Assembly: GCA_021496505.1 (NCBI GenBank)
Contig: CP053031.1
Span: forward strand, 1,852,001 to 1,916,000
Reading direction: 5' to 3'
Length of the DNA stretch: 64,000 nt
Source: Thermoleophilia bacterium SCSIO 60948
GTDB taxonomy: Bacteria > Actinomycetota > Thermoleophilia > Solirubrobacterales > 70-9
Within the stretch, counting starts at the first letter, position 1. Every line of letters begins with the position of its first letter. Below are positions 7,308-60,397 of the stretch, one piece after another. The position numbers were made by a program, and so were the translations under genes. The notes beneath the pieces are model-generated. The model had not been told where the DNA came from, ran no database searches, and was given only the letters and a program-made list of their open reading frames with translations.

Positions 7308-7320
7308 CGCTCTCGAGCGC

Positions 7321-7366
7321 TCGAGCGACGATCGGTCGCCACCTGCTGCCGTCGATCGTCGCTCGA
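7321..7366. repeat. Palindromic direct repeat, copy 1
   Basis: This 46-base element has perfect 14-base inverted arms, TCGAGCGACGATCG (7321-7334) and CGATCGTCGCTCGA (7353-7366), around an 18-base loop. The same element, including most of the loop, recurs at 8287-8333 in the same orientation. This copy lies between the ends of two convergent genes and could also act as a terminator. A 14-base palindrome, CTCGAGCGCTCGAG (7312-7325), abuts and overlaps it. Confidence 0.85.
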
Positions 7367-7382
7367 CGCGAGCGCCGACGCC

Positions 7383-8338
7383 TCAGCGGAGTTCGAGGAG
7401 CGAGCGGATGATCGCGACGGTCTCGGAGGGTCGGCGGGTGACGTCGTCCCAGGTGCGCCGCACGCCGCGATAGCCCGCGACGGCGAGGGCGGCGTCGCGG
7501 TCGAGGTCACGGCGACGCTGGAGCGCCTCGGTGTGCTGGCATCCGTCCGTCTCGACGTAGACGCGCTGCTCGCGCCAGAGAAAATCGATCTCGAGAACCC
7601 GGCCACCGATCGCCAGCGCGGCGTTGACGGCCGGACGCGGCAGGCCGGCGGCGACGACCAGGTCCAACAACCGTCGTTCGAGCTCCGAGCGCAGGAACTC
7701 GCCGGGCTCGGCGACCGCGATGATGCGTCGCAGCGTCGCGATCCCGCGCTTTCGCCCACAGGCGCCAGCCGCCTCAGTCGCGCGAAGTCGATGAGCTCGG
7801 CGCGGTTCGCGCGCGAGAACGCCGAGCGCACGTCGTCTTCACTGAGGATCCCGGCGAGGTCGATCAGCGTTCGCTCCACCGAGGCGCACGGGACCGAGTC
7901 CACGGGCTCGATGTCGAGCAGGTCGGCGTCGGTCATCCGGTGCGACTCGATCCCGGCGAGCCGTCCCCCGCGTCGCGACGGCGTGGCGACCTCGATCACG
8001 GAGCGGTTCGTCTGGCGGAACCCGTGCTGGCTGGCCGCGGTCCGGCCGAAGAGGCATGCATTTGGCCCGCACGCCTTCACGGCGGCCATCCGGCGCCCGG
8101 AACGCGAGAGGTCACGGCTTCCGACGACGAAGACCCCCGGGTAGACGCGATGCAGCCGCCCATCGCCCGCCCGCCGGCTCATCGACCGCTGCGGAACGCC
8201 GAGCGCGGCCATCTCGGCGAGGCAGAGCACCCCGTGGGCCGAGCCCGCGACCTCGGCGAGCAGCGCGTCGATCTCCGCGCGTCGCGTCGAGCGACGATCG
8301 GTCGCCACCTGCTGGCCGTTGATCGTCGCTCGATCCAT
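7383..8338 (-). pseudogene. AbiEi-like/DUF559 nuclease-fold gene, interrupted by a frameshift
   Basis: The N-terminal part, read from the ATG at 8338, encodes an AbiEi-like winged-helix and transcriptional-regulator-type region (GVLCLAEMAALGVP, HRVYPGVFVVG, ERTLIDLAG). The frame then loses similarity at about 7745-7775. A second frame continues with the DUF559/Vsr-like nuclease domain: SELERRLLDLVVAAGLPRP, then EIDFLWREQRVYVETDG, then RDAALAVAGYRGVRRTW. Joining the frames by one base change gives a protein of about 315 residues, like the intact relative at 59465-60397. It is either a real pseudogene or a sequencing error. The first 16 or so codons lie inside repeat copy 2, and the stop is 17 bases from copy 1. 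Confidence 0.8.
8287..8333. repeat. Palindromic direct repeat, copy 2
   Basis: This second copy of the 46/47-base element has arms TCGAGCGACGATCG (8287-8300) and GATCGTCGCTCGA (8321-8333) around the loop sequence GTCGCCACCTGCTG. It differs from copy 1 by one inserted G and one C-to-T change. It overlaps the 5' end of the interrupted AbiEi/DUF559 gene and therefore encodes its first residues. Confidence 0.85.
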
Positions 8339-59464: not shown

Positions 59465-60397
59465 ATGACCGGCTCGAACTTCCACCGAGAGCTCGACGAG
59501 CTCGGCCCGAGAGCGCTTGCACGGCATCAGCACGACGTGATCGGGTTCCGGCAGCTCGCGGCACGAGGCATCACGCGACACGGCGCGGCGCACCGCGTGG
59601 CGACGGGGCGTCTGTTCCCCCTGTACGAGGGCGTCTACGCGGTCGGCCGTCGGGAGGTGTCGCGCGAGGGGCAGCTGATGGCGGCCGTCCTGGTGTGCGG
59701 AAGAGGGGCGCGCCTGAGTCATGAGAGCGCCGCCGACCTGTTCGGCATCCGGCGCCCGGAGCCGCCGCCCGTTCACGTGTCGATCCCTAGATCGCGCCGA
59801 GCGAGGAGACCGGGCATAGAAGTCCACAGACGCCTCCCCTCGTTGCTCGAGCCCGAGACCACCCACGAGCGCATCCCCGTCACGCCGCTCCCACTCGTCC
59901 TGGTCGATCTCGCCGCCACCCTTCCGACCCGCCACGTCGAGCGCGCGGTCAACCAGGCCGACCAGAAGGACCTGATCTCGCCGGACGCCCTGCGCAAAGC
60001 CCTCGACGAGCTGCCTGTCGTGCCGGGACTCAACGCCCTCCGTGCCCTCCTCGACAAGGACGCCTTCCTGCTCACCGAATCCATCCTCGAGCAGCGCTTC
60101 GTTCCCCTGGCTCTCGAAGCCGGCCTGCCGAAGCCCAAGACCCAGCGCTTCACCTCGGGCCATCGCTGCGACTTCACCTGGCCGGAGCTCGGACTCGTCG
60201 CCGAGACCGACGGCCTGCGCTACCACCGCACCGCCACGCAACAGCGGCGAGATCGCGAGCGCGATCACGCGCATCTGCTCGCCGGGCGCGAGTCGGTCCG
60301 CTTCACCCACTGGCAGGTGGTCAACGACCGCGATCACGTCGTGCGCACGCTGGAGGTCGCCGCGCGACGCGCGACAGCCCTCCGCCGCTCCGCCTAG
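59465..60397 (+). CDS. AbiEi-like/DUF559 nuclease-fold protein (intact)
   Basis: This 310-residue protein joins an N-terminal winged-helix/AbiEi-like region (about 1-185: FRQLAARGITRHGAAHRVATG, quoted to 20: FRQLAARGITRHGAAHRVAT; LFPLYEGVYAVGR) to a DUF559/Vsr-like nuclease domain (about 205-305: SILEQRFVPLALEAGLPKP, RCDFTWPELGLVAETDG, RDRERDHAHLLAG, RFTHWQVVNDRD). The acidic residues of the PD-(D/E)xK-like core (D in RCDF, E and D in AETDG) are present. It is the intact relative of the gene broken at 7383-8338. Many Thermoleophilia have several such genes; their role is unknown. The stop shares CTAG with mmsA. Confidence 0.83.
   Translation: MTGSNFHRELDELGPRALARHQHDVIGFRQLAARGITRHGAAHRVATGRLFPLYEGVYAVGRREVSREGQLMAAVLVCGRGARLSHESAADLFGIRRPEPPPVHVSIPRSRRARRPGIEVHRRLPSLLEPETTHERIPVTPLPLVLVDLAATLPTRHVERAVNQADQKDLISPDALRKALDELPVVPGLNALRALLDKDAFLLTESILEQRFVPLALEAGLPKPKTQRFTSGHRCDFTWPELGLVAETDGLRYHRTATQQRRDRERDHAHLLAGRESVRFTHWQVVNDRDHVVRTLEVAARRATALRRSA

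Follow-up and report, generated by a model that had tools for sequence, protein, structure and literature searches.

For many abundant palindromic repeats, no enzyme is known. In REPtrons, which pair repetitive extragenic palindromes (REPs) with a REP-associated tyrosine transposase (RAYT), a single-gene enzyme of the Y1 HuH type is framed by palindromes of 20 to 40 nt that overlap its ends, and hundreds of palindrome copies are dispersed outside genes. No dedicated transposase has been reported for CGTC REPs (PMC3733652), and no mobility genes have been reported beside BoxC/triplex motifs (PMC4666352). In the AbiE type IV toxin-antitoxin system, AbiEi occupies a pair of 23-bp inverted repeats separated by 3 bp and thereby represses its own promoter; when two members of the AbiEi family were compared, neither bound the repeats of the other (PMC7319586). 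The homing endonuclease I-Bth0305I dimerizes on nearly 60 bp (PMC3943268). Here, we analyze a 64,000-nt stretch of Thermoleophilia bacterium SCSIO 60948 (contig CP053031.1, positions 1,852,001 to 1,916,000; "the window"), in which copies of one palindrome stand at both ends of a gene predicted to join an AbiEi-like winged helix to a DUF559 nuclease.

This arrangement resembles a REPtron in that a single-gene enzyme is framed by palindromes overlapping its ends and in that dispersed extragenic copies lie mainly between convergent or tandem genes. It differs in the enzyme, an EDxHD/Vsr-type nuclease in place of a Y1 HuH transposase, in the length of the palindromes (about 49 nt), in copy number (3 to 12 per family, as lower bounds), and in having no GTAG tag. 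With AbiE it shares an AbiEi-like winged-helix half (Foldseek match 6y8q) and, at the 5' end, inverted repeats of matching size, but the window gene has no adjacent AbiEii toxin gene, a nuclease is fused at its C-terminal end, and further palindrome copies stand past the stop codon and at other genomic sites. The nuclease half shares its predicted fold and catalytic residues with I-Bth0305I and Vsr, whereas its gene lies outside any intron or intein, is framed by full palindromes, and has no known methylase partner. C-rich hairpins that by eye look like E. coli BoxC/triplex and rhizobial RIME elements frame stand-alone DUF559 genes or follow ycjD. No earlier description of this recurrent gene-palindrome architecture was found, and a literature search, outside which most subscription journals fell, found nothing linking DUF559 to repeats.

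Matching palindromes frame AbiEi-DUF559 genes in Thermoleophilia

A profile search of 12 Thermoleophilia genomes gave about 100 matches, and 75 AbiEi-DUF559 genes with both flanks were used. At an ungapped score of at least 20, the same gene-specific palindrome was found at both ends of 20 of the 75 genes, compared with none of 1,500 cross-gene pairs of 5' and 3' flanks. When six loci that had been picked by their palindromes were left out, 16 of 69 genes retained a match at both ends (p ~3e-23). A strong 5' palindrome was present in 22 of the 75 genes and in none of 525 control windows. The first-pass annotation of the window had suggested searching related Thermoleophilia for the 46-base element and asking whether copies flank other AbiEi/DUF559 genes; flanking by palindromes, though of other sequences, proved to be a recurrent layout.

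The 29 clearest 5' palindromes measured 39 to 53 nt with a median of 49, the value of 53 being a ceiling because arms were limited to 26 nt in the measurement. The median equals the AbiEi footprint (2 x 23 + 3 = 49 bp). An in-frame start codon fell within 19 of these 29 palindromes, and an ATG occupied the exact center of 8 (expected, ~0.5 to 1), while the palindrome sequence itself varied from gene to gene. Overall, we are confident that such a palindrome belongs with its gene.

The protein is predicted to join a winged helix to a homing-type nuclease

Structure prediction was carried out on the intact protein of a related Solirubrobacteraceae metagenome-assembled genome (G052), for which AlphaFold returned a model with a predicted local distance difference test (pLDDT) score of 92. 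Foldseek matched this model to the AbiEi antitoxin (6y8q), then to the EDxHD homing endonuclease I-Bth0305I (3r3p), and weakly to Vsr (1cw0). The AbiEi domain scored above the Pfam cut-off in three of five relatives. Five residues were fully invariant in 57 relatives (E207, D234, E245, H252, and D261), as would be expected of an EDxHD/Vsr active site, and the nuclease half has therefore probably been kept active. The predicted architecture is thus an AbiEi-like winged helix followed by a nuclease of the Vsr/EDxHD homing type.

Individual genes have private families of dispersed palindromes

Family sizes were counted by hand among the matches of a joined palindrome query, and all are minimum values. 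In genome G040 (one contig), seven genes have dispersed families of their own, with at least about 12, 8, 7, 6, 5, 5, and 3 copies; four genes of G037 have families of at least about 12, 9, 8, and 4 copies; and three genes of the source genome (G000, a single 3.42-Mb contig) have families of at least 9, 4, and 3. The remaining genes had a single palindrome copy among the matches listed. These private families suggest that each DUF559 enzyme maintains or spreads its own repeat.

Fifty-five solo copies from G000, G016, G037, G040, and G052 were placed relative to neighboring genes: 21 lay between convergent, 20 between tandem, and 3 between divergent genes, with 7 inside a mechanically called open reading frame and 4 unassigned. 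REPs are placed likewise, between convergent or tandem genes (PMC3733652). At one junction, G037 has a solo copy that three other species of its genus lack; in these the two genes lie much closer together, and the absence fits a gain in G037.

Intergenic blocks of G040 (L286, 1583-1967; L288, 1504-1975; L289, 1514-1863) contain palindromes of several DUF559-linked families, nested and duplicated. Short palindrome pairs 170 to 435 bp apart in the same genome were considered as deletion derivatives of the unit, a reading that was rejected; they resemble duplicated stretches between genes that contain palindromes of several families and show no DUF559 homology.

In G000, the family of the window palindrome has nine dispersed members, two of them with decayed left arms. 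The seven copies outside the window are all intergenic, none adjoins a DUF559 gene, and several stand directly past the stop codons of unrelated genes, such as those for a biotin ligase and a histone-deacetylase-like protein. Full copies end in TCGAG...CTCGA, without the GTAG tag at the stem foot, and no common flanking duplication was seen around them. The exact element pattern had no match in a wider genome-contig collection, and a covariance model of the family, run over 349 genomes of the class, found matches almost confined to G000.

These results bear on the first-pass annotation, which had compared the locus with REP/RAYT and proposed a search for the element. The anatomy that it invoked holds up, with recurrent bracketed genes, private dispersed families, and intergenic solo copies, but a RAYT enzyme does not: no Y1 transposase (PF01797) was matched in G000 at E values up to 1. 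The search returned nine copies, but only one DUF559 gene bracketed by the element; G000 has nine DUF559 matches, six above the Pfam cut-off, and the window gene alone adjoins a member of the nine-copy family. Because the other seven copies lie away from DUF559 genes, G000 by itself suggests chance and looks like the outcome named beforehand as telling against a link, that of a widespread element unrelated to these genes. The wider survey gives a different picture, with different genes carrying different palindromes.

Pairing rather than sequence is conserved between genera

The families of other genomes could be found only by a pattern of outer arms and length with the center left free. This pattern recovered palindromes of the same length in G016, G037, G052, G040, G003, and others, with genome-specific centers. 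One AbiEi-DUF559 gene lies between two such palindromes in each of G016 (951 bp apart), G037 (~1000), and G040 (924). The G003 gene has these outer arms in its 3' copy and a matching palindrome with altered arms as its 5' copy, and the G052 gene has only the 5' palindrome. The 5' flanks of G016 and G003 are alike, so the palindrome-gene unit seems to have been inherited at one locus. A single-protein scan of the wider genome-contig collection returned, besides the known G052 contig, just one distant relative, and hence no independent Thermoleophilia replicate.

The inner arms, on which the search pattern placed no constraint, co-vary strongly between genera, with 90 double changes compared with 35.6 +/- 4.9 after shuffling (0 of 500 shuffles as high). 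Although the families had been picked by eye as palindromic, which biases the set toward pairing, slid controls from the same set drop to about one-quarter. The feature conserved between genera is pairing, not sequence. Covariation was weak within the G037 L212 family, and none was found within the G000 family, which has too little sequence variation.

Palindromes also frame DUF559 genes beyond the class

A hand-written DUF559 consensus, which served only to find records, retrieved 21 DUF559 genes from a plasmid collection, 20 without an AbiEi half and 1 with it (Tsukamurella). The palindrome score at both ends was at least 18 for 15 of the 21, compared with 5 of 48 neighboring genes; the associated p of 8e-7 is only a guide, since the threshold of 18 was chosen after the values had been seen and one genus accounts for several of the records. 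The genes passing the threshold belong to Sphingomonas, Azospirillum, Sinorhizobium, Qipengyuania, Novosphingobium, Deinococcus, Picosynechococcus, Pseudanabaena, and Tsukamurella, the hosts of the mostly stand-alone genes being Alphaproteobacteria, Deinococcus, and cyanobacteria. Several of these DUF559 genes sit within conserved clusters (between sufB and sufC, among pnt genes, and in hpa and paa clusters; Table 1), a location that fits insertion.

In Escherichia coli, BoxC-like repeats come after the DUF559 gene ycjD (L371, 2277-2997, E. coli T7Express), and the region downstream of this gene matches a median of 13 places in each E. coli genome. Strain LS45, which lacks the gene, was considered as an empty site and rejected, because a larger rearrangement there leaves no clean joint. 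A true AbiEi-AbiEii pair on Rhodococcus opacus plasmid pR1CP1 (L352, 904-2280) has an AbiEi gene whose ends lack matching palindromes, unlike the DUF559 fusions.

A proposed self-spreading module and its alternatives

We propose that a palindrome, an AbiEi-type winged helix fused to an EDxHD/Vsr-type nuclease, and a second palindrome, in this order, form a REP/RAYT-like module in which the nuclease recognizes and spreads its own palindrome, and we give this reading a probability of about 0.6. The palindrome would be the cognate site of the protein encoded between its copies. The winged-helix half probably binds the palindrome as a dimer, by analogy with AbiEi on its pair of 23-bp repeats; the 5' copy, over the start codon, would probably also control expression of the gene, and the 3' copy would close the unit. 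The remaining steps are suggested by active-site conservation and by where the copies lie: the nuclease half would probably cleave the palindrome (as duplex, cruciform, or single-strand hairpin) or the DNA next to it, and repair would then copy the palindrome, or more rarely the whole unit, into new intergenic places.

Several observations weigh against this proposal. About half of the surveyed genes have no clear palindrome or a 5' one only. The stand-alone DUF559 genes lack an AbiEi half, so their recognition must differ, and the neighboring genes that also score lie in repeat-rich plasmids, some of them sharing the same repeats. At the G037 empty site, the junctions are too diverged for an exact joint, and no target duplication was seen. 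A quick tree did not support the idea that shared outer arms define a single protein clade. Finally, as a correction to the first-pass annotation, the bracketed gene is frameshifted: its AbiEi-like and DUF559 parts are in different frames, so that it is broken near 7751-7775 or the assembly is in error there, and from the sequence it is a pseudogene or the product of a sequencing error. As a single case the window example is weak, and it is probably decayed; with its gene frameshifted, the nine-member family may now be an orphan.

The palindromes might instead be no more than AbiEi-type operators or regulatory hairpins, the 5' copy repressing its own gene, the 3' and dispersed copies acting as terminators or regulon sites, and the nuclease half having a separate job in defense or repair. 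AbiEi does repress itself through inverted repeats of just this size (PMC7319586), and the 5' palindrome spans the start codon, but we consider this account unlikely, since it leaves unexplained the matching copy past the stop codon, the dispersed copies mostly at the 3' ends of unrelated genes, and the same layout around DUF559 genes that have no AbiEi domain. Less likely still is that DUF559 genes, or a unit carrying them, insert into or beside older repeats that something else has spread. Certain insertion sequences target REPs (PMC1525189), C-rich hairpins are common in the plasmid hosts, and BoxC-like repeats lie 3' of ycjD; yet paralogues of one genome carry different palindromes, some palindromes have no other detected copy, and start codons fall at palindrome centers.

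It is very improbable that the layout is a functionless local accident of G000, in which a duplication or a recombination scar, the latter an alternative named in the first-pass annotation, made the second copy. The two window copies are each other's closest relatives within the nine-member family, and such an event could still account for the origin of the second copy at this locus, but other sequences show the same arrangement across many genes and phyla, and the survey refutes an accident as the general explanation. Integron attC cassettes, which also place direct repeats around a gene, were set aside because the arms have no attC-type core (judged by eye).

Under the self-spreading module, DUF559, a common domain of unknown function, would acquire a role, and homing-type nucleases could keep and spread repeat populations. 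Being framed by such repeats makes the family a candidate for the absent enzymes, and because a paralogue often has one private repeat, the question of the enzyme is directly testable. We raise only tentatively, as a somewhat doubtful extension, the idea that DUF559 (Vsr/EDxHD) nucleases might be the missing mobilizers of orphan palindromic repeats (BoxC-type, RIME-like, cyanobacterial hairpins, and possibly CGTC REPs), as a multi-phylum, non-HuH counterpart of REP/RAYT.

Features of the window locus

The first-pass annotation had described a 46/47-nt palindrome occurring twice in the same orientation around the AbiEi-DUF559 gene, and this was confirmed (Table 1). The two copies are 966 bases apart, have 13- to 14-nt arms, and are identical over their first 28 bases; the 3' copy is one base shorter through one missing base. 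Its core 20-mer had 2 matches with at most three mismatches in the window, where 0.01 were expected, and the palindrome core is thus not due to chance. The gene lies beside TerC and EamA genes, and no AbiEii toxin gene adjoins it.

Table 1. Coordinates of palindromes and genes (window positions unless stated otherwise)
Feature	Position	Strand	Remarks
5' palindrome, 47 nt	8287..8333	.	Covers first codons of the minus-strand AbiEi-DUF559 gene
3' palindrome, 46 nt	7321..7366	.	16 bases past the stop codon; orientation as 5' copy
AbiEi-like N part, winged-helix region	7775..8338	-	AbiEi_4 E 2e-4, below Pfam cut-off; tblastn to G052 protein
DUF559 nuclease part	7383..7751	-	Different frame from N part; DUF559 E 5e-9; tblastn
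Frameshift region	7751..7775	-	Frame change between the two tblastn segments
Stop codon of window gene	7385-7383	-	
Candidate start, ATG	8338-8336	-	
Candidate start, GTG	8308-8306	-	Inside 5' palindrome, 3 bases from its center (8310)
Second AbiEi-DUF559 gene	59513-60355	+	No clear palindrome at either end
Palindrome copies in G000 (contig positions)	179696, 268611, 1859321, 1860287, 2209071, 2333429, 2505823, 2773924, 2955241		
Cluster-embedded DUF559 genes (Sphingomonas/Deinococcus plasmids)	L356 4974-5384, L357 4986-5381, L358 4965-5306, L359 4968-5321		Matching hairpins at both ends
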